DNA of 44,751 nucleotides, taken from NCBI GenBank assembly GCA_017643685.1, contig JAEPMY010000016.1, forward strand, positions 1-44,751. The letters run 5' to 3'. Shown here piece after piece: positions 1-19,906 of this stretch (position 1 is the first letter of the stretch; each line of letters begins with the position of its first letter). The notes under the pieces were generated by a model. The model saw nothing but the letters and a program-made list of their open reading frames with translations. It ran no database searches and had not been told where the DNA came from. The translations under genes were made by a program, and so were the position numbers. Origin of the DNA: Sneathiella sp. Its GTDB lineage: Bacteria > Pseudomonadota > Alphaproteobacteria > Sneathiellales > Sneathiellaceae.

Positions 1-277
1 GAACCATCATAGCTAATAGGCGGATAAAATACCGTATTTTGCATAAAAAATGCGTTATTGCGCACTAGACATTTTTACACTCAAATCGCCCTAACCATGA
101 AACCACCAAATCTGTAACGTGGGGGAATAACATCGCTTACAACTAAACAATAGAGACCTAAACCTGAGGAAAAATCGATATATAGATGATACCTGGTTCT
201 GGATTGATCCAATTCGAGGCGATGATAAGGAGTTTTCGATTAAATTCAGTGAAGAGTTTGGAGAACTGCCGGCTCGG
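1..277. other. Left-edge region upstream of the recombinase
   Basis: No gene of its own is supported in bases 1-130, which are AT-rich. A near-perfect palindrome occupies 26-40, with arms AAAATAC and GTATTTT around one central base. A small GCAT/ATGC hairpin follows at about 41-53. From 131 onward the reading frame of the recombinase is open and looks coding (see that entry). No tRNA end or obvious attachment site is visible. The island boundary may lie outside the window. Confidence 0.4.
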
Positions 278-2131
278 TTGCTGATTTTCGTTAAGCAGGC
301 ACTTATGCCGAGAGTAAATGCGAGAAGCAGATGTAGAGATCTGGAACTTCCGGACGGGCGCTTTAGCGTATCAATCCCTTCACTAAAAAGAACATTACTT
401 CATTTAAAATTCACCGTTTCTTGGCTCCGTAAAAATTACCCTAATAAACGACTTTCAGAACTATCTTATGAGCAAATCCAAGAGATGTTTTTAGCATATT
501 TGTCGGCCAAGAATTCTAATGGCAAGCAAGTGTTCCCAGGGGTGCGATCCTATAGCATATTATGCAGTTTATTTTGGTTTCATGAAAATTTACAGGACCA
601 GTATTTTGGCAATGAAATTGACGATGGTATAAGTGTTGCTTTGGAAAAAGACATCTTACTTTCCGATAAAGTTGAACAGTCAGCAAAAAAAATAAATCCA
701 AAGTTTGATTTCGTTGAGTGGAAAACGGGCACTAAACTAGATGGATTATCTATTTCTCAACAGATTGCATTGTTGTCGTATTCCTTGAAATTTTTAAAAG
801 ATGATAAAACCAAGTTAGTCATAGCGCTTACACGATTTCAACATCGAACAAAGAGAAAGCAATCACTTTCTACGACCCGGTATTTAGTAGACGGTGGGTT
901 TATGAGGATAGGGAAAAAACAAAATTCTCAATTAGACAGTGATACACAATCTCACAGAACAGTTATGTTAGAAGAGTTGTGCTCACAATTTGGTGGAGAA
1001 AAATGGGAAGATCTACCGAATTGGTTGGATACTTTTAGTTTTAAACAAGGGAAGGGCACAAACGGATCAAATTGGGAATATCAAGAAATCTTAATTGATA
1101 TTTTTAATGCAAGTGTACTCGTTTTTGCTTTGTTGACAGGTGCGCGTAGAAATGAATTAGAGTCTATTGCAGGGTCAGACATTGAAAGACAAAAAGATGG
1201 ATCTTACACATTTCGCAGCAGTATAAATAAGACAAACCAAGGCATATCGACTATTCGTTACATTGCGGGAGAGGTTGCGGAAATAGTGGATATTATTCGC
1301 AATCTAAAAGAATTTGAAGATCCAGATTTTCACGAACCATTGTTTAAGAGGGTGGCATCCAAGCCTGGGAGTGGCATGCGAGCAAACAAGGCTTCTGTTA
1401 ACTCTATTGCTGAAGCAGGGGCGGGTTTAAGGACTTTTATAAATCGCCGAGTGAACCTTTTTCTTGATAACTCTCTTCAAATCAAAAATTTTTATATGCA
1501 CAGTTGCCGTCATGCGTGGGCCGAATTTGCACTTCGTCGTTTTGATGGTAGTTCTGTTCCCGAACTTATACGTGAGCACTTTCGCCACAATTTTGGAAGT
1601 TATATGACAGACCGTTATATGATGGGGAAATTGTTGGAGAGTGAAGACATGGAACTTCAACTCAACCTAGAATATATTAGAGAACTTATTGGTAGGGCTG
1701 CAGAGGGATCCGAGCGTTTGTACGGCCCAGTTGGGAAGTATATTGAAGGGCTTTTGAAGAGCTTTGAATTTGTAGGCGAAGATGAGGTCGAAGAAATCGT
1801 AGATACTTTTCAGGGACATATTGAGCCTCATGAATATGGGTTCTGCCTAGTTCGCCCAGAGACAGTTTCCCAGGCTCAATGTTTTAACAAAGAAACTCAA
1901 TTGGCGGAGACAGATGAAGCCTGTTGGGAGAAGTGTGGTGGTTGCATAAACCGATTAACTCTCCCGACTCATCGTGAGGATTTAGTGCGTCAGGGGCAAG
2001 CTATGAAAGTATCAAGAGATGCTTTTGAAAAGCTAAACTTTACCTCTATTGTGAATGCTTATGACCAGCAACTTCATAGGTACAAGTCAGCAATTGAAGA
2101 AATCGACGCTGGAGAATCATGTGATGCCTGA
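278..2131 (+). CDS. Large tyrosine recombinase (integrase) with C-terminal Cys cluster
   Basis: This is a tyrosine-recombinase-family protein, the likely enzyme that moved the island. Numbered from the TTG at 278 (617 residues), the catalytic signature is Arg290 in TGARRNEL, the box His408-Ser-Cys-Arg411-His412, His437, and the presumed nucleophile Tyr447 in MTDRYM. Five cysteines follow (523, 535, 549, 553, 556), the last three as CWEKCGGC, suggesting a zinc-binding module. The family is much larger than phage integrases of about 400 residues and resembles recombinases of multi-gene transposons such as Tn554 TnpB. The start is unresolved. The frame is open from 131, and the upstream translation (for example DDTWFWIDPIRGDDKEF) looks protein-like, but it has no ATG or GTG. 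A GAGGA ribosome-site-like sequence lies at 166-170. The true start may be an unusual codon, or the 5' end may be damaged. The next gene overlaps the end by 8 bases. Confidence 0.85.
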   Translation: MLIFVKQALMPRVNARSRCRDLELPDGRFSVSIPSLKRTLLHLKFTVSWLRKNYPNKRLSELSYEQIQEMFLAYLSAKNSNGKQVFPGVRSYSILCSLFWFHENLQDQYFGNEIDDGISVALEKDILLSDKVEQSAKKINPKFDFVEWKTGTKLDGLSISQQIALLSYSLKFLKDDKTKLVIALTRFQHRTKRKQSLSTTRYLVDGGFMRIGKKQNSQLDSDTQSHRTVMLEELCSQFGGEKWEDLPNWLDTFSFKQGKGTNGSNWEYQEILIDIFNASVLVFALLTGARRNELESIAGSDIERQKDGSYTFRSSINKTNQGISTIRYIAGEVAEIVDIIRNLKEFEDPDFHEPLFKRVASKPGSGMRANKASVNSIAEAGAGLRTFINRRVNLFLDNSLQIKNFYMHSCRHAWAEFALRRFDGSSVPELIREHFRHNFGSYMTDRYMMGKLLESEDMELQLNLEYIRELIGRAAEGSERLYGPVGKYIEGLLKSFEFVGEDEVEEIVDTFQGHIEPHEYGFCLVRPETVSQAQCFNKETQLAETDEACWEKCGGCINRLTLPTHREDLVRQGQAMKVSRDAFEKLNFTSIVNAYDQQLHRYKSAIEEIDAGESCDA

Positions 2132-2774
2132 TTTCAGTATTTTTGATATGAAATTGGGAGAGGAAAAAAAGGAAGAACTTCCTGATTGGCCTGAATTTTC
2201 TAGCGGTAAAAATGTTGGAATAGCAAAAAAAATGTATTTCAACATTCTAGCTCGGAGAGATGATATCAAAACTCAGCTGAACAATGGAGTTGAGTTGAAA
2301 ACCCGACAAAAGAAAATTTTGGCTACTGATATCTCGGAAAGTGTAGGCAAAAACAAGTATTATTTGAATGCTCGTGAATTCCCAACTTTGAAGCGTTTTA
2401 TCGATGAGACTAATGATGCATTGTCTCGCATTCAGCCAACAGGGGCCGAGTTTTCACGCCCTAAGCGCGTGATGGGCAGAACTGAGCTTGTCAATAGAGT
2501 TAGTTTTCTAGAGAAAAGGTTAGAGACAGAAAACTTCTCTAAGATGCTAGATAGTCAAATTTTAAATCAGTTTGGATCAACTAGACAAAATTTGATTGAA
2601 GCACAAAAAGAAATAATTGAGCTAACTGAGAAATTAGCTTTGAAAAGGAAGAGTGAGGTGGATCTAATTGATCAAATTTCTACTCTTTTTGAAGAATTAC
2701 AGGCACTAAGAAATCAACTTGAAGAGTTAGGCGTTAAGCCTAATCCTCAAAAGTATTTAAAGGTGGTCAAATAA
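2124..2774 (+). CDS. Recombinase-associated HTH/coiled-coil protein
   Basis: This 216-residue soluble protein is of unrecognised family. The ATG at 2124 is chosen because GGAG lies just upstream at 2111-2114 and the start overlaps the recombinase stop, as in translationally coupled genes. Residues about 35-105 are helical and include KILATDISESVGKNKYYLN, which looks like a DNA-binding helix-turn-helix. From about residue 115 to the end the sequence has heptad-like Leu, Ile and Glu spacing typical of a coiled coil. Position and build recall accessory proteins of Tn554-like elements (TnpC) and other recombinase trios, which help the recombinase choose or bind DNA. That role is inference. It is followed at once by a 15-codon reading frame and then a second HTH/coiled-coil gene. 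Confidence 0.75.
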   Translation: MPDFSIFDMKLGEEKKEELPDWPEFSSGKNVGIAKKMYFNILARRDDIKTQLNNGVELKTRQKKILATDISESVGKNKYYLNAREFPTLKRFIDETNDALSRIQPTGAEFSRPKRVMGRTELVNRVSFLEKRLETENFSKMLDSQILNQFGSTRQNLIEAQKEIIELTEKLALKRKSEVDLIDQISTLFEELQALRNQLEELGVKPNPQKYLKVVK

Positions 2775-2821
2775 TGACAAGATGCAATTTCATTCAAGCT
2801 GATGGTTGGGGGAAAGAATGA
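2774..2821 (+). other. 15-codon mini reading frame bridging two coupled genes
   Basis: An ATG at 2774 overlaps the TAA of the preceding gene (TAATG). It runs 15 codons (MTRCNFIQADGWGKE) to a TGA at 2819-2821, which overlaps the ATG of the next gene at 2818. It could be a coupling leader that carries ribosomes across the gap. It could also be the remnant of a longer N-terminus of the next gene after a frameshift, or chance. Confidence 0.35.
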
Positions 2822-3231
2822 GTCAGCGCCAGGGCCAAATGAACATTGCCAGGGTTAAGGCTTGGATTGCTGAACGGGATGCCTTGCAAGACTACAATGA
2901 ATACCAACGGGGCTTTAAAGTAAATCGAGTTGTGTTATGTCGTGAATTAGAGTTTGCGCGTTCTGTAGTAACGCAGAACCCAGCCGTAAAGAAAGCTTTA
3001 GAAGACGCGGAAGAGCGATGGTACGGCGTTCCTCCTGAGGAAGAACCCAAGGCAATCCATGCGGCTCGCGAGCGCTCTGAAAAACGTGTTCAACAGTCGA
3101 AGAGACAAAATAACCAATTGTTTGATGAGATCGCAAAACTGAAAGCTGAAAACGCGTTTTTAAGGCGGCAATTAGAGCGATATCAGGCGATGGAAGAAGT
3201 TATCGCGCAGACTGGGTTGTGTCCACGTTGA
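2818..3231 (+). CDS. Second small recombinase-associated HTH/coiled-coil protein
   Basis: This 137-residue protein has no known catalytic motif. The ATG at 2818 is preferred over a TTG at 2806 because GGGGGAAAG sits directly in front of it. Residues about 28-62 (KVNRVVLCRELEFARSVVTQ and following) resemble a helix-turn-helix that begins with an Asn-Arg pair, as in small accessory proteins of recombinase transposons. The rest is rich in Glu, Lys, Arg and Gln and ends in a predicted coiled coil (about residues 87-125). It overlaps the helicase gene downstream by 13 bases. With its neighbours it completes a recombinase plus two accessory proteins. Its exact function is unknown. Confidence 0.75.
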   Translation: MSQRQGQMNIARVKAWIAERDALQDYNEYQRGFKVNRVVLCRELEFARSVVTQNPAVKKALEDAEERWYGVPPEEEPKAIHAARERSEKRVQQSKRQNNQLFDEIAKLKAENAFLRRQLERYQAMEEVIAQTGLCPR

Positions 3232-5414
3232 TTGTCCAAATAAAAAGGCAAAGAGGAATTAATCTACGTGTGGCAGATGAAGTCAGAGAGAACGGTTCCT
3301 TAGTTTACCGAGACAGACCACTGGTGCTTAAATTTCAGAAAAAGACTGCACCGGCGGCGACTCCTGGGACGGTCTGGGAAGTGGCTGGCAATACCTCTTT
3401 ATATCGCTCAACCGTAAACGGATTTTCTTTCTTGGAAACTAGGATGATTGTCAGCAAAGCAACGATGATCCGCCCTTCTGGAGAGCTACTGTCACGGTGG
3501 ATTGCTGCAAATATTGATGGCATTGGAGATGTTAAGGCAAGGCGTATAGTGCGTGCCCTACCTGACTTGAATAAAGTTATCCGCGATAAAAATGCGCAGA
3601 GATTAATGACGGTTAGCGGAGTCTCTGAAGAGCTTGCCCAGAGACTAATAGCAAATTGGCCTGCTGATCATTTGTATGAAACCATAGCTTGGCTTCAAAA
3701 TTCTGAACTCCCTTTACGCATTGCAGATCAGTTAGTCAGAGTTTACGAGAATGACGCTGTAAATAAGCTGAAATCCAATCCCTTTTTACTGACAGCATTT
3801 GGATTGGCTTTTAGCGATATTCTTAAATTGATCAATCGATTTGAAATTGAAGTATCGGAGTTTGAAGTGTTAGCAGCGATCGCTGAGCATATAACTCTAA
3901 AGTATACTCAACGCACTCAATCAACAGTTATACCACAAGAAACTCTTGTAAAAGAGGCTCAGAAACTCTGCAGAGATTTGGAGGTTTGTCATGCTGATTT
4001 GTGTCAAGCAGCAAAGAGCCGTGGGGTTCTGCTCAGAGTAGAAGGCGGTCTGCAAGCGATTGGCACAGCCATACAGGAGAACACTGTAGGGCATTTTTTT
4101 AAACGGATGGCAAGCCGCCAACCAGGAGCGGGGTGTCTTCTGGCTGCTTGGGAACGTGATGTAAACACAAGTATTATTGAACAAGCACTTAGAGATTTTG
4201 AAGGTGTTTTATCGTTCAAACTGACAAGGGAACAGCGATCTGCAATCGCAGGTGCAGTCTGTAGTCCTGTGGCTGTAATATCTGGAGGGGCGGGTACAGG
4301 TAAGACTACCATCCTGAAGGCTATTTTATCAGTTTACGAGAAGGTTGCGGATGGCCTGGCTGTATTTCAAATTGCCCTTTCAGGAAGGGCTGCTCAACGC
4401 ATGGCGGGGAGTACTGGACGGCCTGCAGTTACAATTGCGAAGTTTTTATATGATCATTTAGGGGAGCGTAAAGAGCCTCTCCCTGAGCATATACTTTTAA
4501 TAGTGGACGAAGCCTCCATGGTGGATTTGCTGTCTGCATACAAACTCGTTGGTATTCTTCCGGAAGCTACCCGGATAATACTTGTTGGTGATGCTGCGCA
4601 ATTACCACCCGTTGGAGCGGGCCTTGTATTTCATGCAGCTATGAAAAGTGACCTGCCCGTTTTCAATCTTTCAGAGGTTAAACGTCAGCGGGCTGAAAGC
4701 GGAATTCATTCCTTGGCGACTGCGATACGCAATAAAACTTATACCCGACAGCTGTTAGCCCCACTTCAAGGTGATGTTTACTATTTTCCAACTATGGATG
4801 CTGCTTTAGTAGTTGAAGAGTATACCAAAACAAGATCACTTGAAGAGTGCATTGTCATCTCCCCTACTCGCAAAGGACCACTTGGTGTTGACGTTATTAA
4901 TCGTTTAATTCAAAGCCATTTTGAGCAAACCAATCCCAAAGCACTACATTATAACGACGATCAATTCGGGTATATCCCTTGGATCACAAATGCAGGTACG
5001 AGCCTGCGATTGGGTGATCGAATTATGGTCACCAAGAACGATTACAAACTCAATATTCGCAATGGAGACTTGGGGTCAATTGTTCAAGTATTTGGTGAAC
5101 CTTTAAATGATAGTTTTGGTGAGATTGAGGTGAATGGAGAGATAATTCCGGTTACTCGCGAGATGCTCGAAAAATTAGATCTGGGTTACGCCACGACCAT
5201 CCATAAAAGTCAAGGTTCACAGTGGAAAAAGTGCATCTTAATCTTGCCGGGACACGCTGAAAAAATGATAGACCAATCACTGCTCTATACAGCGGTTACA
5301 AGGGCATCAGAGACTCTATCAATAATTGGGGATTGCGCACTTATTGAAAAGGCCATTGGGCGCGGTGCATATGCTTTAAATCGACTTACTAATTTAGGGT
5401 GTGTTTTGCGGTAG
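3219..5414 (+). CDS. RecD2-like SF1 DNA helicase
   Basis: This 731-residue ATP-dependent helicase is of the RecD2/TraA superfamily 1B type. Two helix-hairpin-helix elements (IDGIGDVKARRIV at about 99-111 and TVSGVSEELAQRL at about 131-143) precede the motor, as in RecD2. The motor shows Walker A GGAGTGKTT (356-364), the DEAS box (430-433), GDAAQLPPVGAG (457-468), IHKSQGSQW (661-669) and YTAVTRA (690-696). The family unwinds DNA 5' to 3' and acts outside RecBCD. The GTG start lies inside the previous gene, so all four genes of the module probably form one operon. A helicase encoded with a recombinase suggests a role in element transfer or replication-linked integration. This is inference, and it could also be repair cargo. 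Confidence 0.9.
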   Translation: MSTLIVQIKRQRGINLRVADEVRENGSLVYRDRPLVLKFQKKTAPAATPGTVWEVAGNTSLYRSTVNGFSFLETRMIVSKATMIRPSGELLSRWIAANIDGIGDVKARRIVRALPDLNKVIRDKNAQRLMTVSGVSEELAQRLIANWPADHLYETIAWLQNSELPLRIADQLVRVYENDAVNKLKSNPFLLTAFGLAFSDILKLINRFEIEVSEFEVLAAIAEHITLKYTQRTQSTVIPQETLVKEAQKLCRDLEVCHADLCQAAKSRGVLLRVEGGLQAIGTAIQENTVGHFFKRMASRQPGAGCLLAAWERDVNTSIIEQALRDFEGVLSFKLTREQRSAIAGAVCSPVAVISGGAGTGKTTILKAILSVYEKVADGLAVFQIALSGRAAQRMAGSTGRPAVTIAKFLYDHLGERKEPLPEHILLIVDEASMVDLLSAYKLVGILPEATRIILVGDAAQLPPVGAGLVFHAAMKSDLPVFNLSEVKRQRAESGIHSLATAIRNKTYTRQLLAPLQGDVYYFPTMDAALVVEEYTKTRSLEECIVISPTRKGPLGVDVINRLIQSHFEQTNPKALHYNDDQFGYIPWITNAGTSLRLGDRIMVTKNDYKLNIRNGDLGSIVQVFGEPLNDSFGEIEVNGEIIPVTREMLEKLDLGYATTIHKSQGSQWKKCILILPGHAEKMIDQSLLYTAVTRASETLSIIGDCALIEKAIGRGAYALNRLTNLGCVLR

Positions 5415-5438
5415 CTGGACTGCAATTTGATGCGTTAG

Positions 5439-5472
5439 TGTTGGTGATAAGAGAGCTCTTACCCTCACAACA
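5439..5472 (+). other. Long hairpin after the helicase gene
   Basis: An imperfect stem follows the helicase stop by 24 bases. The perfect inner arms are TAAGAG (5448-5453) and CTCTTA (5456-5461), and the outer arms TGTTG.TGA and TCACAACA pair around small bulges. No T-run follows, so it is not a standard intrinsic terminator. It may still stabilise or end the module's transcript. Confidence 0.35.
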
Positions 5473-5665
5473 TTGCGTTCGAGTTGCTCAACCTATGTTT
5501 TGGGCTACTTGAACGACTGAAGCTCTTTAGGCCTTTTGTTTTCGCCTTCGTTTCTGCGATGCTATTGTCAATTATATTTTAAAAAATTAGTAAAACATAA
5601 TTGATTATTTCAATATATTGCCTCCAATATACGTCATCATACTATATATAGGCGATTTCTCGGAT

Positions 5666-6244
5666 ATGAATAAGGAAGAAGGTAATTTTGAACAGGGTAG
5701 CAATGCCAAAAAAGAAAATAAGCAGAAAAAGAAATTAACAGCACAAGAGAAAGCCGCAGCCAAGAAAAGGGCGCTAGAGGGTAAGGCCCGCAGAAAAGCA
5801 TATAGAAAAGAAATTAGTAAAACAGGTGACCTACAGCCCTGGGAAAGCACAGCAGCACAGCAGGAACTGATAACCTCAATCTGCAGTCTTTTTAAAAAAA
5901 CTTTAGGAATAAGTTTGAAATTGAATTTTGATCCTCAATTCGATTTGGAGAGTTTCAAAGCTTTTGTTTCATCCTTTGGATTTAATCCTGCGCATAATGA
6001 TCCCACCCATTCAGGACTTCGTTTTATTAGTGGTGTTATCGAAGAAACAAAAACTGGTTGCTCTGAAAATTATATTGCAAAAAAATATAACTCTACTCCA
6101 GAGACCATTCAGTTCATCCATAGGATCTTGATTAACAGCGGTGTATCTTTGAAGGAAGAAGTTGAAGATTGTAAATTTTTAGAAGATGTCGTCTACGACG
6201 AAGATTATTTCGATAACCAATTTTATGATGAGGGTTATCACTAA
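5666..6244 (+). CDS. Hypothetical protein, basic N-terminus and acidic C-terminus
   Basis: This 192-residue protein is not recognised. The ATG at 5666 is preferred over an upstream TTG at 5618. Residues about 12-60 are dense in Lys, Arg, Ala and Gln and probably unstructured or nucleic-acid binding. The middle is mixed alpha/beta, and a stretch near residues 140-160 (CSENYIAKKYNSTPETIQFI) looks like a helix-turn-helix. The last 30 residues are rich in Asp, Glu and Tyr. The composition suggests DNA binding. It stands alone about 250 bases after the helicase gene and before the metal cargo, and may belong to the mobility module. Confidence 0.55.
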   Translation: MNKEEGNFEQGSNAKKENKQKKKLTAQEKAAAKKRALEGKARRKAYRKEISKTGDLQPWESTAAQQELITSICSLFKKTLGISLKLNFDPQFDLESFKAFVSSFGFNPAHNDPTHSGLRFISGVIEETKTGCSENYIAKKYNSTPETIQFIHRILINSGVSLKEEVEDCKFLEDVVYDEDYFDNQFYDEGYH

Positions 6245-6485
6245 CAGTTCCGGTATGGTGGCGCAAACGCACTAATTACAGAAATGGGGGCTCAAATTTT
6301 TAGTTAAAGAAACTGCCAGTATTTGAAGGGGTGCTGTCACCAATCGAGTGCGAAGAGCAGTGCGCTTCGAAACATAATTTAAAGGCTGCATGTCATGGAA
6401 GTGGCGTGATTAGAATCAACGTACAATCTGTAAAACGTGATTAAATTATCAATATATCGTACTTCGATTTAAAAAGTTTATAATA

Positions 6486-7100
6486 ATGTCAGCGAAAAAC
6501 CATAAACACCATAGAAAACCTGATTTATTGTTATGGGGATCAATCCTTACAATATTGCCGCTTTATATTATTCAAGTACTGGACGTGGTGGCCATTACCG
6601 ATCTTTATTGGTTGAACGAATTCAGTGTTACAGTATTTGATCTGGTTAATACCATTTGGCTGGGGGTATTGATCGGTATTATTATGGTGATGTTGCTGAG
6701 CAAAATTCCTCGTGAATTTGTCATGGCATTGTTAGGGCATAAATGCGGATTTTCTGGCATTTTGAGAGCAACCCTTGGTGGTGTTCTTCTTGATTTGTGT
6801 AGCCATGGAATATTGATGGTTGGAGCAAAGCTTTATGAACGAGGCGCATCAGCTGGTCAGGTGATCGCTTTTTTAGTAGCGAGCCCTTGGAATTCTTTTT
6901 CACTCACTTTGGTATTAATAGCCCTTATAGGCCTCCAGTGGACGCTTCTGTTTATAGCTCTATCATTATTGATAGCGATTATTACAGGTATGTTATTTGA
7001 TTTTTTGGTTTCACGTAGAATCCTGCCTGAGAACCCAAATGCGTTAGAAATGCCAGCTGATTTCCACTTTTCAGTGAAGCAAAGAAAAGATTACTCGTAG
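6486..7100 (+). pseudogene. UPF0718/DUF318 permease, N-terminal part (frameshifted)
   Basis: This is the first 204 codons of a polytopic membrane permease of the UPF0718 (DUF318, ArsP/YraQ-like) family. It has at least four hydrophobic helices and the family motifs LLDLCSHGILMVGAKLYERGAS and VASPWNS. The family exports metal-related or organo-metalloid compounds, and the substrate here is unknown. The frame ends at 7098-7100, while the rest of the same protein continues one frame away, so a single-base indel near 7064-7080 splits the gene. It heads a likely operon with the oxidase and cytochrome downstream. Either the gene is broken, or two half-proteins are made. Confidence 0.75.
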
Positions 7101-7120
7101 CTAAATTCGACAAGAAGTTC

Positions 7121-7522
7121 TTGGTGTTTACAGTCGTCGAAGGAATTGCAGAAAGCAGAATGGTACTGCGTTGGATACTATTTGGTGTCGTATTAGCTGG
7201 CTTGGTCAAAGCTTCTATCGATACAGATAGTTTCGCCACATATTTTGGTGCTACTTTTGGCGGGCTTGCATTAACAATTGTGGTTGCGACGATAATGGAA
7301 GTTTGCTCTGAAGGGAGTACTCCAATTGCAGCGGACTTACTTACGAGGGCGAATGCACCTGGGAATGGCTTTGCATTTTTAATGACCGGTGTGGCTACAG
7401 ATTATACGGAAATCATGATTTTGAAAGAAACAACGAAGACGTGGAAATTTTCCATATTCCTACCGTTAATAACGCTACCACAAGTATTCTTAATTAGCTG
7501 GATTATGAATTTTTTTGCCTGA
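7121..7522 (+). pseudogene. UPF0718/DUF318 permease, C-terminal part (frameshifted)
   Basis: This is the second half of the same permease, with about four hydrophobic segments and the conserved EVCSEGSTP motif. This frame is open from 7061 and reads FSEAKKRLLVAKFDKKFLVF before the TTG at 7121, which is the expected continuation of the N-terminal part. No ribosome site is evident in front of 7121. This supports a frameshift in one ancestral gene rather than two real genes. Confidence 0.7.
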
Positions 7523-7539
7523 CAGGTTTGGATATTGAA

Positions 7540-8922
7540 ATGCGACTAACTAGAAGAGAAGCTTTAATTTGTGCTGGCAGCGCATTAATTTCTGGTTTGA
7601 GCCCGAGGCTTGGCATGGCAAGTTCAGCTCATGAGTTGATTGCATCTGTTGGACAGTCTCAACTAGCTCCTTCTCAATACCCGAAAACAGAAATTTGGGG
7701 GTATAATGGCGAAATTCCTGGGCCGCTTATTAAAGTAAGGCGGGGCGAGTATGTCAGGAGGAAATTTGTCAATAAATTACCCCAATCTTCGACAATTCAT
7801 TGGCATGGAATACGAATTGACAACAAGATGGACGGTGTACCGCATCTTACGCAAGAGCTTGTAAAACCTGGTGATGACTTTGAGTATGATTTTGTAGCAC
7901 CGGATGCTGGTACCTATTGGTATCATCCGCACAATAAAACTTGGGAGCAAATGGCACGTGGGTTGTATGGTCCTCTGATTGTGGAAGAGGATGATCCTCC
8001 TGAAGTTGATGAAGATTTGACACTGCTAGTCGATGACTGGCGTTTAACTCAAGAAGCGCGTATTTCAGATGATTTCGGATCAATGATGGATTGGTCCCAT
8101 GCTGGCCGGTTGGGAAATTGGGTTACTGTAAATGGTATTGGAGACTACAAGCATCATGTTAAAAAACACCAGCGGATCAGGTTGCGCTTGATAAACGTTA
8201 GTAATTCCAGAGTATTTTCACTTGGCTGGAATGGCATGCGTAGCTGGCTTCTGGCTTTGGATGGGCAACCGGTTTCCAAACCAACAGAGATTAATAGAAT
8301 AGAGCTTGCTCCGGCACAACGTGTAGATCTTTTCGTAGATATTACAGGTGAAGAGGGCGGAGATGCTTTCTTGCTATTCCAAGATCGGGAGCAAAGTCAT
8401 AAAATTGCGTCATTTACCATTAACGCCGCAATGCGTAGTAGCTTATTGAACGCGCCGGCTTCACTATCACCAAACAACATTAGTGAAATAGGTAATCTTA
8501 AAACAGCGAAAAAAATTGACTTGATCATGGAAGGTGGCGCTATGGGAAGAATGCGAGGCGCTGTCTTAAATGGCGAGTATAGGAATATGCGGGACCTAGC
8601 GGCTTCAGGCCATTTGTGGGCTTTTAACAATAATGCAGGACTCACGGAAAAACCTTTGGCTGAAATAGAAATTGGTCAAACAGTGATAATGTCAATTGTG
8701 AATGATACTGCTTGGCCTCATGCCATGCATTTACATGGTCATCATTTTCGCCGGTTAGATAAAGGTGATCGTTTAGGGCCGCTTAGGGATACTGTTCTTA
8801 TGGAGAGAGGCGAAAGGATCCAAATAGCTTTTGTCGCGGACAACCCTGGTAAGTGGTTATTTCATTGTCATATGCTGGAACATTCTGCCTCTGGCATGGT
8901 TACTTGGTTAAAGGTGGCATAA
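7540..8922 (+). CDS. Tat-exported multicopper oxidase
   Basis: This 460-residue three-domain multicopper oxidase is of the CueO/SufI/CopA class. The ATG at 7540 gives MRLTRREALICAG, a twin-arginine leader followed by a hydrophobic stretch; a TTG at 7528 is less likely. All four copper signatures are present: HWHG, HPHN after YWY, HAMHLHGHHF and the type 1 box HCHMLEHSASGM. The family oxidises Cu(I) or small reductants in the periplasm and reduces O2 to water. There is no Met-rich insert, unlike the second oxidase in this island. The stop overlaps the start of the cytochrome gene (TAATG), so the two are translationally coupled. This suggests the oxidase may exchange electrons with that cytochrome. 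Confidence 0.9.
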   Translation: MRLTRREALICAGSALISGLSPRLGMASSAHELIASVGQSQLAPSQYPKTEIWGYNGEIPGPLIKVRRGEYVRRKFVNKLPQSSTIHWHGIRIDNKMDGVPHLTQELVKPGDDFEYDFVAPDAGTYWYHPHNKTWEQMARGLYGPLIVEEDDPPEVDEDLTLLVDDWRLTQEARISDDFGSMMDWSHAGRLGNWVTVNGIGDYKHHVKKHQRIRLRLINVSNSRVFSLGWNGMRSWLLALDGQPVSKPTEINRIELAPAQRVDLFVDITGEEGGDAFLLFQDREQSHKIASFTINAAMRSSLLNAPASLSPNNISEIGNLKTAKKIDLIMEGGAMGRMRGAVLNGEYRNMRDLAASGHLWAFNNNAGLTEKPLAEIEIGQTVIMSIVNDTAWPHAMHLHGHHFRRLDKGDRLGPLRDTVLMERGERIQIAFVADNPGKWLFHCHMLEHSASGMVTWLKVA

Positions 8923-9353
8923 TGCGCCCTTCTTATGTGCTCAAAATTGCTTTGATATTTGTGATTTGCTTTATCAATACTGGGGCCGTATTGGCCAATG
9001 GTAAGGCTTTATACAAAGAGTATTGCGCTTCTTGCCACGGTGTGGAATTGGAAGGTCAGGAAGATTGGAAAACGCCCAATGATGATGGCTCGTTAAAAGC
9101 TCCACCACATGACGCTAGAGGTCATACGTGGCACCATTCAGATCGGCTTCTTTTTTTCTACAGCAAGTATGGAGGAGATGAAGCTCTAAAAACAATTGGT
9201 GTTACTGGTGTTAAAAGTGCCATGCCAGGATTTAAGGACGTTCTTGACGACAGCCAAATATGGAAGATTCTCAGCTATATCAAAAGTACTTGGCCGAAAA
9301 GGGAAGCAGAGTATCAGAAGAAAATATCTGATCAAGATGCAGCAAATCAGTAG
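8922..9353 (+). CDS. Periplasmic class I cytochrome c
   Basis: This 143-residue single-heme cytochrome begins at the ATG at 8922, which overlaps the oxidase stop and follows AAGGTGG. An earlier in-frame start would lie inside the oxidase gene. Residues 1-26 form a signal peptide ending in VLANG. The heme box is CASCHG, and the likely axial Met lies in SAMPGFKD. Several His residues lie between. Its function is inferred as electron carrier for the upstream oxidase. Cytochromes of this kind are often found beside copper oxidases in metal-resistance islands. Confidence 0.88.
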   Translation: MRPSYVLKIALIFVICFINTGAVLANGKALYKEYCASCHGVELEGQEDWKTPNDDGSLKAPPHDARGHTWHHSDRLLFFYSKYGGDEALKTIGVTGVKSAMPGFKDVLDDSQIWKILSYIKSTWPKREAEYQKKISDQDAANQ

Positions 9354-9521
9354 ATTTAATAACGTCAAAAATTAAATTTGGCGGCACAAATACCTGCTGG
9401 CCAGTTGTATCTGGTAACACAAGAGGTATGCGACCCGTTTGCCGTAGTGCCTTAATCCAGTTCACTTTCGCCTAGCTAAATAAACGCTAGAAATTCGCGC
9501 CTAGATGAATAACTTATGGAT

Positions 9522-9791
9522 TCACTTAGGAGGCAATGCTGAAAGCTTATTATATATCAAAGCTGTTGCCCAAACCAATAAACCAGCCAGAAGTGTCCAC
9601 ATGACCAATCCGACGACAAACCCTTGAAAGTGCATTGTCCATCGATACTCATGGAAATCTGCGTGTAGCATATGCCCGCTCATTGCCATCATGGTTTCAG
9701 GTAACAATACAACGAAAAGAGCACATATCGACCAGACTACGGCCACTATAATAGCTGCGGCTAAACCGAGTTTGAAAGCGTCCAATTTCAT
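9522..9791 (-). CDS. DUF5676 family small membrane protein
   Basis: This 89-residue protein has two strong membrane helices (about 8-33 and 58-83) separated by a loop rich in Met and His (MMAMSGHMLHADFHEYRWTMHF). It matches the small DUF5676 family that is common in copper-efflux clusters. The ATG at 9791 with GAGG in front is chosen over a TTG at 9815. It is the last gene of the minus-strand copper locus, separated by about 195 bases from the EamA gene. It may assist metal handling at the inner membrane. The precise function is unknown. Confidence 0.75.
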   Translation of the reverse strand: MKLDAFKLGLAAAIIVAVVWSICALFVVLLPETMMAMSGHMLHADFHEYRWTMHFQGFVVGLVMWTLLAGLLVWATALIYNKLSALPPK

Positions 9792-9986
9792 TACGAACCT
9801 CTTTCTTGTATTCAAGAAGTATCTAACTTAAAAAAGGAAGTTAAGCTGATTTCATGAGGGGCTGCATTGTTTTAAATCAGTTTTTGATGATTAAAGGTGG
9901 CTTGCTTAAAGGGTTTAAATATAGGATAAAAAATTAGCGCAAGCGGATTGGAAACTTCAAGAATGGCCTCTCCAACTTTCTTGTAG

Positions 9987-10916
9987 TCATTTGTTGTCTT
10001 GGTTGGTTTTCTCCGCAGATAACGGTGTGTCGGACTTGCTTTTTGGCCAATTAACCAAGACTATTCCAAGAATTATTACACTGATACTAATTGTAGTGGA
10101 TTTGCTTATTTCTTCGTCAAAAAAGAGAAAACCTAGGACAAGACCAAAAATTGGTACTAAGAAACTGAATGCGTTGGCTTGGTTGAGTTCAATATCTTCC
10201 AGTACGTGGCACCATAGCCAGTAAGCCAACGCAGTGCCTGGTAATGCTAATCCCAGTAGGCTAACGATGAATGCTCCATTCCAGGTTATAGTGCTGATAT
10301 CCTCAGTCAAAAGACTAATCATTGCTAGAAAAAGACTACCTATTGTAAGTTGCCAACCCATTGCACTCAGAGCATCAATATGGCTGGCCGCTCGTCGTAT
10401 CAAAATATTACTGACGGTTATACCTAAAGCACTCAGTATTATGTAAAATATACCTATATTGTAAGAACTTTCAGTTTCAGAAATTAGTGAGGGAAGCGCT
10501 ATGATCAAAACTCCTGAAAAAGCTAATGCTAGTCCTGTAATACCTCGTTGATTGAGACGTTCTTTCAGGAATAAGCCTGTTAGCATAGCAGCCATTAGTG
10601 GCTGAGTATTCGCGATTACTGTCGCAATTCCTGGCGAAACAAACTCTGACGCATGAAACATTCCAAAAAATCCAAGAGTTGTTGCTCCTAGACCAATACA
10701 GCTAATTAAGAACCAATCCATTAAAGTATTGGGTTGCGGCCGTTTCATAATTACAGCGATAGTAAGTAGCAAAACTCCTGCTAAAAGAGCACGTAGGGTG
10801 GCAAAAGTAACATGTGGCGCATGAGGTAAACCAATTACGATCAGTGGGAAGCAGATTGCCCACAAAAACATTACAATAATAATTAGTACCCTAAGTCGTA
10901 GATTTATACTCGGCAT
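9987..10916 (-). CDS. EamA/DMT-family transporter
   Basis: This ten-helix drug/metabolite transporter has two EamA repeats, each ending in the typical NTQP...KERL and PIFG...FFDEEIS patterns. The ATG at 10916 gives a protein of about 309 residues; a TTG at 10928 is possible and would overlap the upstream stop. The substrate is not readable from sequence. It is placed directly after the ABC membrane protein gene and probably co-transcribed with it. It may export an amino acid or other metabolite rather than metal. Confidence 0.85.
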   Translation of the reverse strand: MPSINLRLRVLIIIVMFLWAICFPLIVIGLPHAPHVTFATLRALLAGVLLLTIAVIMKRPQPNTLMDWFLISCIGLGATTLGFFGMFHASEFVSPGIATVIANTQPLMAAMLTGLFLKERLNQRGITGLALAFSGVLIIALPSLISETESSYNIGIFYIILSALGITVSNILIRRAASHIDALSAMGWQLTIGSLFLAMISLLTEDISTITWNGAFIVSLLGLALPGTALAYWLWCHVLEDIELNQANAFSFLVPIFGLVLGFLFFDEEISKSTTISISVIILGIVLVNWPKSKSDTPLSAEKTNQDNK

Positions 10917-10924
10917 TTGATCTA

Positions 10925-12148
10925 TCAACCGGTTTTTTGAACTATTTCTTCATGGTCAGTTGGATATGCTTTCAGTCTTAAAAATTTGATCGTTTCATTA
11001 TATCTGATGGTTACGTCAGCGGCATTCTGATAATATTTGAATAGTTCTTTTAGAGGATTAGAAAATTCCTTATGGGCCGCAATAACTGCAATTAGTGCGC
11101 CAATGGTAAGTTGGTTTTCTATAACCAAGTAACCACCAATGGAATAAAAGAAAAAGGGTGTAAGGGCAGTCAGAAAATTGTTGATTGCTTTCATAAAGAA
11201 TTTGGTTTTATGGATCTTTTGCCTGATCCGTTCGAGTCTTCTTAAATGAGAACTGACAACCAAAATTCCCTCTCTGTTCTGAATGTGATGAGAGGATTGG
11301 TCTCCCAATTCTCCTCCAAGTGAGCGTATTTCAGATACTCGAAGACGAGCCAGTTTATTTACGCGTTTTTGTAGTTTTGGAATCAAGAAAAGCTGAAATG
11401 GAAGTAATGTGAGTGCTGCTGCTCCTAAAATGGGATCTTGCATAAACATGAAAAATAGTATGGTTATGAAGGTTCCGCCTTGAAAAACAGGTAGTGAAAA
11501 TACATCTGATGCAAATCCACCGATCGGTTCTAGTTCTTGTGTAATGAGAGGGATAATCTCAGTACGGCGCCTAGATCCCGAACCATTTCTCCAACTTTTA
11601 TAAACGTTTAACCTAAGGCGTCTCAAGAGATGTTCCCCAACTCTGCCTTTATAGACATTAAGCATATACTTTAAACCGCCACCAATAGAGATGGCGCTGA
11701 GGAAAACTCCACTTAATGTAAAAAGAAGCTGGTTTTGAGATAGGCTCCAGCCCAGAAAACTGATTGGTAAATCGCTAGCATTAATTACGTCATTTATTAT
11801 GATCTTGGGAAGCTCCAGTATCAGGTACAAAACTGGCATTACAGTTATTCCAAGAAATATGAGGAGCGCTTGTTGTTTTAAGGTGTTGCGAATAATGAAT
11901 GAAAATACGCTCGATCCAATAACAGTAGTAGGCAGTTCTTTATTATTGTGTCGTTGAATTTTCTCAAGCAACAGCTTTCTGTACAACTTGATTGTTATGG
12001 CAATAATCAACAGCGTGGAAATTGCTAATGGCGCCCAAAACACAATAACATGTAAGAAGGAATGCACCCACAGAGGCACTTGATCACTTAATGCGTGGCC
12101 TAAGTGCATTAATAGCCAATGTACTATGTTTTCGTAGTCGTTGTGCAT
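10925..12148 (-). CDS. ABC exporter transmembrane domain lacking an ATPase domain
   Basis: This 407-residue membrane protein resembles the membrane half of a type I ABC exporter. It has an extra N-terminal helix (about 25-55) followed by roughly six helices, and an intracellular-loop region around GSGSRRRTEIIPLITQEL. It stops soon after the last helix, with no Walker A, LSGGQ-type signature or Walker B. No ATPase gene is nearby. It is either a truncated exporter, a protein that recruits an ATPase encoded elsewhere, or a repurposed membrane scaffold. It lies between the copper ATPase and the EamA gene in the same direction. Confidence 0.7.
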   Translation of the reverse strand: MHNDYENIVHWLLMHLGHALSDQVPLWVHSFLHVIVFWAPLAISTLLIIAITIKLYRKLLLEKIQRHNNKELPTTVIGSSVFSFIIRNTLKQQALLIFLGITVMPVLYLILELPKIIINDVINASDLPISFLGWSLSQNQLLFTLSGVFLSAISIGGGLKYMLNVYKGRVGEHLLRRLRLNVYKSWRNGSGSRRRTEIIPLITQELEPIGGFASDVFSLPVFQGGTFITILFFMFMQDPILGAAALTLLPFQLFLIPKLQKRVNKLARLRVSEIRSLGGELGDQSSHHIQNREGILVVSSHLRRLERIRQKIHKTKFFMKAINNFLTALTPFFFYSIGGYLVIENQLTIGALIAVIAAHKEFSNPLKELFKYYQNAADVTIRYNETIKFLRLKAYPTDHEEIVQKTG

Positions 12149-12238
12149 TCCTTCTATCCTTAAGCTGTTTGAGCAAAAAGGCTCATGTTTCTAAAACTGT
12201 CTTATCGCCAATAGCTTAAGAGGCAGGGAAATGGTGGT

Positions 12239-14536
12239 TTAAATTTTCGATTTTCTTAGCCTGAGAGCGTTTAGAATGACAGAAACTGATGAAAGACTCA
12301 TAGCGGCTGCAGCAAAAATTGGAGAGATCAATATCTCAAAAAATGGATAGAGAATACCTGCAGCTATTGGAACGCCAGCAGCATTATAAACTAATGCAAA
12401 GAACAAGTTTTGTTTTATGTTCCTCATTGTAGATTTTGATAATCTGCGAGCTCTGACAATTCCATTTAAGTCACCTTTTACCAATGTAAAACCGGCACTT
12501 TCGATTGCTACATCTGCGCCAGTGCCCATAGCTATACCTACATCGGCTTGAGCTAAAGCTGGTGCGTCATTAACACCATCCCCAGCCATGGCCACTTTAT
12601 GTCCGGTCTTTTGCAACTCTTTAATGATTCGAGCTTTATCTTCTGGCAGCACATCGGCTCGGATTTCGTCGATACCCAATTTCTCTGCAACGGCCAACGC
12701 AGTTCTTTCATTATCCCCAGTGGCCATAACTATCCGGAATCCTTCCGAGTGAAGAGCATTCAGAGCATTTGGGGTGGTTTCTTTTATTGGGTCAGCAACA
12801 CTCACCAGCCCCGCGACAGCACCTTCTAGTACAACAAACATTACTGTTTCACCGCGATCTCTCCTTTCATTAGCCAGATTGGTGAAATTTTCTGTTTCAA
12901 GCCCCAGATCAGAAATTAATTTGCTGTTGCCTAAGGAAACAGGTTTACCGTTCACTACGCCAGTAACACCTTTTCCGGTAATGGCGTTAAATTGCTCAGC
13001 TTTTACAAGTTTTAGGCCTCGTTCTTCAGCTCCAGTAACAATTGCTTCCGCCAACGGATGTTCTGAGCCACGCTCCAAACTTGCGGCGAGTTGAAGTACT
13101 TCTGTTTCACCATACCCTGCATGCGGAATTACTTCGATTAGTTTTGGTTTGCCAACTGTGAGAGTGCCTGTTTTATCGACAATCAGCGTATCTATTTGAG
13201 CAAAGCGTTCCAGTGCTTCAGCATTTTTAATGAGTACTCCTATCTGCGCACCAAGGCCAGTTGCCGTCATAATTGACATTGGTGTAGCTAGGCCAAGTGC
13301 ACACGGGCAAGCTATTATTAAAACCGCCACCGCAGAAACCAAAGCATAAGCATAAGCAGGGCTAGGGCCCCAAATTGACCAACTAATAAAGGAAATTATT
13401 GCTATTAGAATCACAGCAGGTACGAACATTCCTGCTACTGAATCCGCTAGTTTTTGAATAGGTGCGCGGCTACGTTGGGCATTTGCGACCATTTCGACAA
13501 TTTGACTAAGGGTCGTGTCCGATCCTACTCGATTTGCCTTTATTATCAGGCTACCAGTTCCATTCAGCGTGGCTCCAGTGACAGGGTCTCCAGGGCTTTT
13601 TTCAATGGGAACAGCCTCTCCTGTAATCATTGACTCATCAACAGAGGTAAGACCTTCAGTTACTACTCCGTCCACTGGAATCTTATCACCTGGATACACT
13701 CGAATGAGGTCCCCAACGACGACTTCTTCCAGAGGGATTTCTTCTTCCCTGCCGTCTTCCCTGATTATCCTTGCTGTTTTAGCTGCAAGGTCAAGAAGAG
13801 CCTTAATCGCAGTGCCTGTGCGTTCTCTCGCGCTGAGTTCCATGACTTGACCAAGCAATACCAATGCGGTAATTACAGCGCCCGCTTCGAAATAGACTCC
13901 AACATTTCCATCTGAATCTTTGAACCCTGCAGGAAATATTTCTGGAATAAGAAGGGCTGCAATACTGAATAGGTATGCCGCACCAACACCCATACTTATT
14001 AGCGTGAACATGTTCAGGCTTCTGTTGAGAACCGATTTCGCACCTCTAACAAAAAAAGGCCAACCGGCCCAAATTATTACAGGCGTGCTTAATGCAAACT
14101 CCATCCAAAGGGCGTTTCTTTCGCCAACTAAATCTCTAATTACACCAAACCCCAATAAAGGTCCCATTGTCAAAATCAAAAGGGGAACAGTAAGGATAGC
14201 GCTGACCCACATTCGTCTTGTAAAGACAATTAGTTCAGGATTAGGTCCTTCGTCACCGGTCGGGACACCCATTGGTTCAAGCGCCATTCCGCAGATAGGG
14301 CAATCTCCCGGTTTATCTCGAATTATTTCAGGATGCATGGGGCATGTAAATTGAGTGCCTTTGGCATACGTATGCTTTTGTGTTTTATGTGCTCCCGATA
14401 GATAATGATGGGGATCACTTGAGAATTTGTCATGACATTTTTGCGAGCAAAAATGGTATGTAATTCCATCAAAATCATGCTTTGGTTTGTTTTTGTTCTC
14501 GTCAACTGTCATGCCGCATACTGGATCTTTGGCCAT
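12239..14536 (-). CDS. copA: Copper-translocating P1B-type ATPase
   Basis: This 765-residue Cu(I)-exporting ATPase sits in the inner membrane. From the ATG at 14536 it starts with a YHS-type metal domain (DPVCGM and YHFCSQKC) and then a heavy-metal-binding domain (TCPMHPEI...[11 protein letters not shown]). Eight membrane helices follow, including the CPC motif (410-412). Also present are TGEA (305-308), the phosphorylation site Asp454 in DKTGT, Glu-His-Pro with His493, and GDGVNDAP. There are no classical GMTCxxC domains. This build is common in environmental copper islands and exports cytosolic Cu(I) to the periplasm. The start at 14536 is favoured because it falls 4 bases after the stop of the permease gene, with GGGAA in front. 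It is probably co-transcribed with that gene. Confidence 0.95.
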
Positions 14537-14540
14537 GGTG

Positions 14541-15890
14541 TTAGTTCCCGTGAGTTTGATGGTTGGACTCTTCATTTTCGGCTGGATTTTTGGAAAGAAA
14601 GATCTTTTCACCAATAAAGATTAGTGAAATCCCAATAAGAGCCGAATATATGACTGCGATGTCTGAAGTTGCCTTTACGTATATAAACGCGCTTAGGACT
14701 ATTATGTCGAATAGGATTGCACAGATTAAGATAAAGGAATTGGCCCCAATTTCTTTTCGCAAGTAACGAAATATCCCCCAATGTACGGCGATATCCATCA
14801 GGATATAAAATATTGCTCCAAGAGAAGCTATTCTGCTTAGATCAAACAAGACCGTTAAAGTTATCGCTATGACAACAGTGTAAACAAGGGTGTGTTTTTG
14901 GATGTCGCCTGGCATACCGAAATGGCTATGCGGTACAAGCTTCATGTCTGTTATCATTGCCAACATCCTAGAGACAGCGAACATACTCGCAATGATTCCT
15001 GAAATGGTGGCAATTATCGCTAAGCCGACTGTGAACCATAATCCATAATCGCCAAACACAGGGCGTGCTGCTTGCGCTAAAGCATAGTCCTTTGCTGCAA
15101 CAATTTCGGTTACACTCAAATTAGATATAACAGCCATCGCAACGAGGAAGTAGATAAAGACACATATGACGATAGAAATGATGATGGCCCTACTAACATT
15201 TTTATGTGGATCAATAATCTCGGAGCCACTGTTGGTAATGGTTGTGAAGCCCTTGTAGGCTAGAATGGCCAATGCCATCGCAGCAATGAATCCTGATAAT
15301 GTAGTTTCTGTTGGACTAGTTGCAGCACTTTCGAAGGAATAACCAGAAATCCATATGCCAACGAGAGCAAATATGGCGATGGCCCCTATTTTAATAAACG
15401 CCATCATGAGTGCAAATAATCCAATTGTTTTATTTCCTGAAATATTAATCAGAAAAGAAAAAAACAATAACCCAACTGCCAGAGCAGTAATTATCCAAGG
15501 CTCAGTCGTCGTATCAAATAGTTGGCTAAAATAGGTTCCAAATGTTCTCGCAACTAAACTTTCATTAATAACCATAGAAAAATACATTAGAAGCGCGCCA
15601 GCAGCTGTCATTGTTGTGCGGCCATAAGCTTTTTCTAGGTACATTCCAATGCCACCAGCAGATGGATACGCATTGGACATTTTGATATAGGAATACGCAC
15701 TGAAAGCAGTCACTATTGCTGCTGCTAGAAACGCCAATGGAAATAAAGATCCCGCAAGTTCAGCTATTTGGCCTGTAAGTGCTAATATACCTGCGCCGAT
15801 CATGACCCCTGTTCCCAGAGATATAGCGCTTAGCAGGGATAGACTGTTTTTTTTGTATTGTGCTGAGCGATTTGAATGCGAATGTTGCAT
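14541..15890 (-). CDS. APC-superfamily amino acid permease
   Basis: This 449-residue amino-acid/polyamine/organocation permease has about twelve helices. Family marks include [11 protein letters not shown] near the N-terminus and [12 protein letters not shown]. Its short N-terminus is His- and Ser-rich. The stop lies 4 bases before the copper ATPase start, so the two are likely translationally linked. Why an amino acid permease sits in a copper operon is unclear. It might import His or Cys for metal chelation, which is inference. Related APC genes recur next to P1B ATPases in metal islands. Confidence 0.85.
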
Positions 15891-15987
15891 CGTCTCGTCC
15901 TGTGAATTAATTGATGATATATGGAGTGGAAAAGGTGAACAGCCTTTATTGCCTGTTAGTTATGCCACAAGGAAAGCGAAAGAGTGT

Positions 15988-16653
15988 TCATTGTGGATCA
16001 CCTTGTTTAAGGGCAAATTTTTTGCTCCAGTTTGGGATGAAAGCTGGCACGTGCCGAGCATAGACATCCCATGCTGAGCCAAATCGTGCACGGGAATCTT
16101 TTTCCTCGGATACTGCCAGCCGCCAATACATGACAACAAGAACCGGAAACATTGCTACTGTGAGAATGGTTGGCCATTGCAGTAGGAATCCAAACATGAT
16201 GAGAACAAACGCCACATATTGAGGATGTCGAATTCGAGAGTAGATTCCTGATACAGCTAACTTGCCATCTCTTTGAGCATTGTAGAGAACTCTCCACGCT
16301 ACCGATAACAACATGAACCCTGCGCCAATCATAAAAATACTAGTGATATGTAACGCATCAAAATGAGCATTACCTTCTAGCTCCAAGAATGTATGAAGCA
16401 AGTGCCCATTTTCATGAGATAAGAAATTGACAGTAGGATAGGTGTCCGACAACCACCCTGAGAATAGATAGATTGTTAATGGAAAACCGTACATCTCTAC
16501 AAAAAGCGCAACAATAAAGGCAGAAAAACCACCGAATGAACGCCAATCGCGTTTTGTTTCCGGCTTAAAGAAACTAAATGCGAATACTATAAAAATTACA
16601 GAGTTGAGTATGACAAGAATCCATAAACCATATGCTTGTTCTGTTTCTTGCAT
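15988..16653 (-). CDS. ICMT-like (isoprenylcysteine methyltransferase family) membrane protein
   Basis: This 221-residue membrane protein has about five helices. Its C-terminal region carries the ICMT/PEMT-type motif (SGIYSRIRHPQYVAFVLIMFG, then SEEKDSRARFG). The family methylates isoprenyl-Cys or lipids using S-adenosylmethionine. Bacterial members in copper islands have no proven substrate. The start overlaps the stop of the DUF2933 gene (TGATG), showing tight coupling. It lies midway in the copper gene row, so a function in membrane or metal stress is plausible but unproven. Confidence 0.85.
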   Translation of the reverse strand: MQETEQAYGLWILVILNSVIFIVFAFSFFKPETKRDWRSFGGFSAFIVALFVEMYGFPLTIYLFSGWLSDTYPTVNFLSHENGHLLHTFLELEGNAHFDALHITSIFMIGAGFMLLSVAWRVLYNAQRDGKLAVSGIYSRIRHPQYVAFVLIMFGFLLQWPTILTVAMFPVLVVMYWRLAVSEEKDSRARFGSAWDVYARHVPAFIPNWSKKFALKQGDPQ

Positions 16654-16901: not shown

Positions 16902-16908
16902 TTGGAGC

Positions 16909-17343: not shown

Positions 17344-17377
17344 GTTGCAGGGTTCCTTATTAGAAACCTAAAGCCAA

Positions 17378-17404
17378 GGAAGATTGGTGTGGCCAATAAC
17401 TTCC
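17378..17404. other. Bulged inverted repeat between copB and the PCuAC-like gene
   Basis: The arms are GGAAG-ATTGG (17378-17387) and CCAAT-aa-CTTCC (17393-17404), with a 5-base loop. It lies after copB and upstream of the next operon's first gene. It could be an operator, since many metal-responsive sites have GGAAG-type arms, or a transcript hairpin. No T-run follows. Confidence 0.3.
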
Positions 17405-17427
17405 AAGGCTTTCGTTCAGTCGGTTGA

Positions 17428-19841: not shown

Positions 19842-19869
19842 GATTTTAACCCAGATAAATTTCTAACAG

Positions 19870-19900: not shown

Positions 19901-19906
19901 TCAAAG

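Follow-up and report, generated by a model that had tools for sequence, protein, structure and literature searches.

The window analysed here, 44,751 nucleotides long and comprising the whole of contig C127 of a draft genome in 186 contigs, opens with genes for a large tyrosine recombinase, two small proteins, and a RecD2-like helicase, and the question raised by this locus is what such a helicase does at the end of a recombination operon. The initial annotation regarded the four genes as one unit, chained by overlaps of 8, 1, and 13 bases and beginning with a recombinase gene at position 131. All four frames are open on the plus strand, that of gene 1 from 131 to 2131 and the others as listed in Table 1. 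The overlaps of 8 bases between genes 1 and 2 (2124–2131) and of 13 bases between genes 3 and 4 (3219–3231) are present; the 1-base overlap is one between gene 2 and a mini-ORF (2774–2821), not between genes 2 and 3, and the spacing from the stop of gene 2 to the start of gene 3 at 2818 is 43 bases. A start of gene 3 at 2774 was rejected, since that frame stops after 15 codons. The mini-ORF is connected to gene 2 via TAATG and to gene 3 via ATGA, perhaps with coupled translation.

The window contains no start codon for gene 1, the beginning of which is found on another contig. The first 140 bases of C127 recur without a mismatch at the ends of contigs C64 and C28, and the sequences diverge immediately beyond, which indicates an assembly branch at a repeated element. 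The minus strand of contig C61 carries the genes of a XerC-like recombinase of 395 residues and of a protein of 781 residues, overlapping by 17 bases, followed by the first codons of the third gene and by the other end of the repeat, an end that is also common to C21 and C128. The 8-bp duplications outside the repeat pair uniquely in three cases out of three (C127–C61, C64–C128, and C28–C21), and therefore the repeat is an IS present in three copies, which we take to be IS66-like. One copy, as judged from these junctions, interrupts the third operon gene, that of the large recombinase, near its start. A start at TTG 278, or a frameshift, was ruled out for gene 1, since its frame opens inside the IS end. 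The join between C61 and the window is supported independently of the IS by genus mates. The operon thus has six genes rather than the four initially annotated, with genes 1–4 of the window being its third to sixth, and their order is a catalytic recombinase (395 residues), the 781-residue protein lacking catalytic motifs, a large catalytic recombinase, a small protein, a VPA1267-like protein, and the RecD2-like helicase.

Table 1. Features of the 44,751-nucleotide window (contig C127), with strand and the basis of each assignment.
Feature	Position	Strand	Basis
Right end of the repeated IS interrupting gene 1, common to ends of C64 and C28	1..140	+	Contig-end comparison
8-bp target duplication, identical to 8 bases outside the IS on C61	141..148	+	Junction comparison
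Gene 1, large IntB-like tyrosine recombinase lacking its first codons (on C61)	149..2131	+	Frames, contig junction, alignment
Gene 2, small protein, 216 residues, no family detectable	2124..2774	+	Frame, family searches, model
Mini-ORF, 15 codons, bridging the gene 2 stop and the gene 3 start	2774..2821	+	Read from frames
Gene 3, VPA1267-like/DUF6262 protein, 137 residues	2818..3231	+	Family profiles
Gene 4, RecD2-like helicase, 731 residues	3219..5414	+	Family profiles, tree
Cargo region	5415..21037		Family profiles
Multicopper oxidase	7528–8922	+	Family profiles
Cytochrome c	8853–9353	+	Family profiles
Copper P-type ATPase	12239–14614	-	Over profile cut-off
CopA-type oxidase	18141–19841	-	Over profile cut-off
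CopI-like protein	19907–20566	-	Below profile cut-off
End motif TTGTTTGTATTT, right island end	22291..22302	+	Motif search
Inverted copy of the end motif	22369..22380	-	Motif search
3' part of ytoQ (target gene); island end at ~22401	22402..22821	+	Genus-mate comparison, TIGR03646

The limits of the element were located by comparison with stretches from seven genus mates (G265, G389, G041, G391, G399, G387, and G168). Homologues of the genes flanking the element on C61 and of the window gene from 22450 on are found together in four of the seven (G265, G389, G041, and G391); G399 covers the window side only, with its contig beginning near ytoQ, and in G387 and G168 genes of both flanks are present, with no match to ytoQ in the stretch. 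An uninterrupted ytoQ, representing the empty site, is present in G389, G399, G041, and G391. In the genome described here ytoQ is split, with 16 codons on C61 and the remainder in the window, and the window part passes the YtoQ model TIGR03646 (157 bits, cut-off 155.35). The island comprises 3,711 bases on C61 and 22,261 in the window, about 26.0 kb in all plus one copy of the IS, with a GC content of 0.382 in its C61 part (including the IS end) and 0.417 in its window part, compared to 0.497 in both flanks. The 44.7-kb window contains two copies of the motif TTGTTTGTATTT, inverted relative to each other, at the right end of the island (0 expected from 100 shuffles), and the first ten bases of the motif are likewise found in two inverted copies within 12 kb of C61, at the left end; within the window and these 12 kb, the end motif is confined to the ends of the island. 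Taken together with the copper-resistance genes of the cargo region, this anatomy very probably represents an integrated, site-specific, cargo-carrying island inserted in ytoQ, in agreement with the initial assignment of the genes to the recombination unit of a large island. The frame directly following the helicase gene (5618–6244, 208 residues) matches no family in Pfam, NCBIfam, or PADLOC, and an ArsP-type permease is split over two adjoining frames at 6486–7522 (profile positions 7–140 and 172–294).

The recombinases were compared with those of SE elements (intA-tfp-intB-srap, e.g., SE-6283 on pSEA1), with the SE loci taken from plasmids, pSEA1 first, as well as with a distant three-recombinase locus from Paraburkholderia. 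In hhalign, gene 1 matches the IntB profile at 85.8% over 277 columns (next best 5.7%), and the 395-residue protein matches the IntA profile at 94.9% (next best 13.9%). The 781-residue protein reaches at most 2.6% with any profile, including Tfp, and gene 2 at most 0.2%, including Srap; the reversed sequences of gene 1, gene 2, and the 781-residue protein, a control set that did not include the 395-residue protein, reach at most 0.7%. HMMER matches the 395-residue protein to IntA at E 2.7e-7, and the IntB HMM gives no match to gene 1 at E 0.01, with BLASTP of gene 1 against the single IntB sequence of pSEA1 giving E 0.005. In an alignment of gene 1 with nine IntB-type proteins, Arg333, His451, Arg454, His480, Tyr490, and Cys566 are invariant, and Cys572, Cys578, and Cys581 are nearly so; the annotation of gene 1 as a large tyrosine recombinase whose C-terminal part has a Cys cluster is thus borne out by conservation. 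The RHRY feature of SE elements is present in gene 1 and in the IntA-like 395-residue protein, where the His and Tyr following HxxR were read by eye, and is absent from the 781-residue protein. The latter has neither the HxxR nor the box-I pattern, as is also the case for Tfp of SE-6283, and two other Tfp proteins have one or both patterns at scattered places. The single-sequence model of gene 2 is all-helical, with a poor mean pLDDT of 51.

Judged by motif order and weak sequence similarity, the core resembles that of SE elements, and the plan of the operon appears SE-like, with a match that covers the positions of IntA and IntB, but not those of Tfp or Srap. The order of a catalytic, a non-catalytic, a large catalytic, and a small protein, the RHRHY residues, the Cys cluster, and site-specific insertion are all shared with SE elements, although the second and fourth proteins are longer here (781 and 216 residues, compared to 581 and 135 in SE-6283) and the VPA1267–helicase pair is added. 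The reported hosts of SE elements are Gammaproteobacteria, whereas the host of the window is a probable alphaproteobacterium, a difference of host range and not of mechanism; the search described in the accessible part of the SE paper found no homologue of Tfp or Srap in Alphaproteobacteria (PMC10214605). The host assignment is drawn from PurH: in the 15 records listed out of 72 with PurH in the plasmid collection, identity is 62.2–65.6% for the nine from Alphaproteobacteria and 55.3–56.2% for the six from Gammaproteobacteria. No 16S gene was found in the genome of origin, nor in 277 kb of a genus mate, which yielded four tRNAs. Five loci from Burkholderiaceae (L231–L235) carry SE-like relatives of IntB, a range wider than that paper reports.

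Close relatives of gene 1 were scarce in the collections searched. Searches by tblastn of plasmids, genome contigs, and viral contigs found none, 289 genomes of the class gave only the genome of origin, with no second copy found in it, and an HMM combining gene 1 with SE proteins found, among 385 genomes of the class, the genome of origin and one weak match (G355). Family searches with gene 1 gave only DUF559 below cut-off in Pfam and nothing in NCBIfam or PADLOC, and a sequence search of the PDB gave only chance-level caspase matches. The proteins of gamma-mobile-trio (GMT) islands and GInts also gave no matches to this core. The NCBIfam GMT models do not match genes 1 and 2 at E 1, nor the two C61 proteins at E 0.1; our own GMT profiles match neither the operon recombinases nor gene 2; and phmmer of these four proteins against GMT and GInt-type proteins found nothing at E 10. 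Gene 1 was rejected as GmtZ (5.1% in hhalign) and gene 2 as GmtX, which is not among its five best profiles, all at 0.2%. Membership in GInts was likewise rejected, with the profiles from loci L014–L016, called GInt-type by layout alone and not against published gin genes, giving no match at E 0.01 to gene 1 or to either C61 protein; the ginD profile gives no match to gene 2.

The two genes that follow the core lead to different relatives. Gene 3 matches DUF6262, which we take to be TnpC-like, just over the cut-off, and VPA1267_fam with 82.4 bits (cut-off 90), together with coiled-coil-like side matches. Of the HTH and coiled-coil parts initially ascribed to both small proteins, only the coiled-coil character of gene 3 has a counterpart in these results, and the HTH parts were not borne out. 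The matches support gene 3 as a probable distant member, or outlier, of the VPA1267 family, which sits in GMT operons, and in this respect the annotated resemblance of the plan to GMT islands holds. The VPA1267 profiles also weakly match proteins that occupy the place of Srap or GinD (E 0.0006–0.011), which may point to remote kinship but is given no weight here.

Family profiles agree with the annotation of gene 4 as RecD2-like. It has the RecD2 layout of HHH domains and an SF1B helicase core, with HHH_RecD2, HHH_5, AAA_30, and UvrD_C_2 over cut-off and SH3_13 below it, and scores 363.8 bits with the curated RecD2 model TIGR01448 (cut-off 500); by these profiles it is a predicted RecD2 relative, not a standard RecD2. 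Its best match in PADLOC is the type IV CRISPR RecD (E 8.8e-59). Among 60 genomes searched, which include the genome of origin, the DNA of the helicase gene has no match in any other. In the 385 genomes of the class, the best non-self match of the protein is the GInt-type helicase of G361 (E 8.4e-63), above generic RecD2, and the mobile helicases of G028 and G257 rank low (E 8.0e-35 and 3.0e-29). In a tree of 32 helicases, seven from multi-recombinase operons lie on one side of a branch (100/99); six operon helicases are again together when two long rows are omitted (100/100), and the grouping recurs in 100% of 200 bootstrap trees in both versions. The tree has long branches, uneven composition, and no outgroup, and a test with two mobile rows says little, such that the result lends support to, and is not proof of, a grouping of operon helicases apart from generic RecD2. 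On Salmonella plasmids, helicase relatives covering residues 77–720 or less adjoin merR in many of the listed records. No VPA1267-like gene was found in the 80 best viral helicase relatives, among the 600 matches listed.

The pair formed by the VPA1267-like gene and the helicase gene was followed in loci fetched via VPA1267 or recombinase queries, in which counts are not frequencies. It occupies the same slot, mostly with overlapping frames, behind three types of recombinase operon. The pair is found behind gmtY-gmtZ-gmtX in L008, L010, L011, and L059 (with a weak VPA1267-like gene in the last, E 0.023), as well as, with broken parts, in L012 and L240. It is found behind three recombinases and a small protein in L005, L006, and L239 and, with broken parts, in L009 and L013; L005, L006, L009, and L239 match the profiles from L014–L016, and L013 is matched by profiles built in part from L005, L006, and L009. 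The third type is the SE-like operon of the window. In L238, a VPA1267 gene is accompanied by a helicase fragment, and no recombinase was recognised in the part of the locus examined. The helicase is absent from L236, where VPA1267 is present, and from L237 and L014–L016. No helicase of this type was found in any of 54 SE-like loci from genome contigs, of which 45 have all four SE genes, 13 extend less than 4 kb beyond intB, and several come from the same genomes; by title, all are gamma- or betaproteobacterial except one "Proteobacteria" MAG. Nor is such a helicase annotated after srap in the stretches examined of SE loci L061–L068. A GMT-like trio on contig C93 of the same genome (L023, 3550–9225; GmtY-like, 476 residues; GmtZ-like, 1166 residues; and a protein of 254 residues) is below NCBIfam cut-offs and has neither VPA1267 nor helicase.

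In the plasmid collection, 151 records have a GmtY relative (E 1e-10) and 73 a helicase of this type (E 1e-60). Among the 60 GmtY records listed (of 151), 18 are also among the 60 helicase records listed (of 73), as are 26 VPA1267 records out of 40 listed (47 in all); four of the other 14 VPA1267 records were fetched, and all four have adjoining helicase frames (two split, one a fragment). The helicase was not found in the 54 SE-like loci and is missing from some GMT and GInt-type loci; it is therefore optional, and relatives would not need it to move. The initial proposal of a dedicated helicase is weakened to that extent, although the small protein beside it does match a family tied to islands.

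The helicase had also been thought to set this cassette apart from GMT islands, which turned out not to be so. Plasmids annotated with gmtY and gmtX have the order gmtY, a VPA1269 or integrase gene, gmtX, VPA1267, and a RecD-like ATPase, an arrangement that also recurs under older gene names; NCBI annotates the genes of these operons as gmtY, gmtX, VPA1269 family, and VPA1267 family. With VPaI-6, presumably the GMT prototype, the operon described here shares a VPA1267-like gene followed by a RecD2-like helicase gene at the end of the recombination operon, although its recombinases and gene 2 have no match to GmtY, GmtZ, or GmtX. According to the accessible part of Hurley et al. 2006 (PMC1464126), VPaI-6 spans VPA1254–VPA1270, and the primers for its gene VPA1266 are listed with an 1879-nt product. 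Each primer has a match in a single locus, the forward one in L010 (at 9468) and the reverse one in L011 (up to 11346); both sites are inside helicase genes (9426–11591 in L010 and L011) and span exactly 1879, and the primers show VPA1266 of the Vibrio island VPaI-6 to be this predicted helicase. The word "helicase" occurs once in the accessible text of PMC1464126, for another island, and is absent from the main texts of the SE paper (PMC10214605) and the GInt paper. GInts (ginABCD) are similar in having four core genes, three recombinase-like proteins, and cargo downstream, with some loci carrying the same helicase pair; they differ in that, as far as the GInt description at hand goes, their third protein is the odd one, the catalytic order here being different. 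Tn554, by its description in the accessible part of PMC10214605, shares a large recombinase, a small accessory protein, and site specificity, although it has three genes. RecD2 and XerD are mentioned on Akkermansia islands in PMC9241678, the accessible part of which does not describe this operon. By its gene neighbourhoods, the predicted helicase is thus an old neighbour of such recombinases and its presence beside them is not new. The operon of the window is a new combination of known parts, and its apparent novelties are the joining of the pair to an SE-like core, the occurrence of such a core in this class, and the spread of the pair over three recombinase types.

RecD2 helicases have 5'-to-3' polarity. 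SE elements move by a strand-biased, copy-out-like route with nicked circles, as described in the accessible part of PMC10214605. Since the strand displaced in copy-out needs unwinding, a 5'-to-3' SF1B helicase encoded in the same operon would be a fitting motor. The explanation that we prefer, and consider reasonably probable, is that the window carries most of the operon responsible for recombination of an integrated island, in which the helicase aids copy-out movement. The two catalytic recombinases would nick and join the ends as in SE elements, the small proteins would hold the complex together, and the VPA1267-like protein would load or couple the helicase, which would unwind the freed strand or a nicked intermediate and allow copying into a circle. 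Being optional, the helicase would assist the process, perhaps in larger islands, and would be neither involved in the cutting chemistry nor a core part. For a role of the helicase in movement as such, we consider the case evenly balanced. A broader proposal, which remains tentative, is that the VPA1267-like protein and a RecD2 subfamily of its own kind make up a portable motor of two genes that has been added to at least three cores (GMT, GInt-type, and SE-like) and powers strand displacement when large islands move by copy-out; the window would then represent a further, alphaproteobacterial lineage. Confidence in both readings is held down because HMMER misses the link to IntB and some of the pair loci are broken; the L238 locus also speaks against the preferred explanation.

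The pair could instead be cargo, such as a defence or DNA-repair module with no part in movement. Its optional nature, the presence of RecD-like helicases in PADLOC models, with the CRISPR match given above, and the shortened relatives beside merR on Salmonella plasmids are all compatible with this reading, which we nevertheless hold to be unlikely, because random cargo would vary in place and the pair does not, occupying one slot with mostly overlapping frames behind three recombinase operon types. We give still less weight to action of the helicase after excision, in replication of the circle or its protection from host nucleases rather than in strand exchange. The domain make-up is that of RecD2, and generic RecD2 is linked, in the accessible parts of the sources, to replication-fork stress and mismatch repair; the tight operon link to recombinases is compatible with either role.

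The state of this particular copy is a separate matter. With its third gene cut by the IS in the assembly, the island may not now move by itself, and, as no second copy of gene 1 was found in the genome, the cassette could be a dead remnant that is little guide to a working system, a reading that we regard as a serious one, just short of even. However, the other frames of the operon are open, the catalytic motifs of gene 1 and the helicase motifs of gene 4 are present, and the ends of the island are recognisable; such a reading, moreover, speaks to the present state of one copy and not to the nature of the system.

Genes for resistance, virulence, or defence are carried by islands of the SE, GInt, and GMT kinds. 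The locus described here places an SE-like core in a probable alphaproteobacterium. As the pair recurs in one slot behind three types of recombinase, and relatives that naturally lack the helicase can serve as controls, the role of the helicase becomes directly testable.
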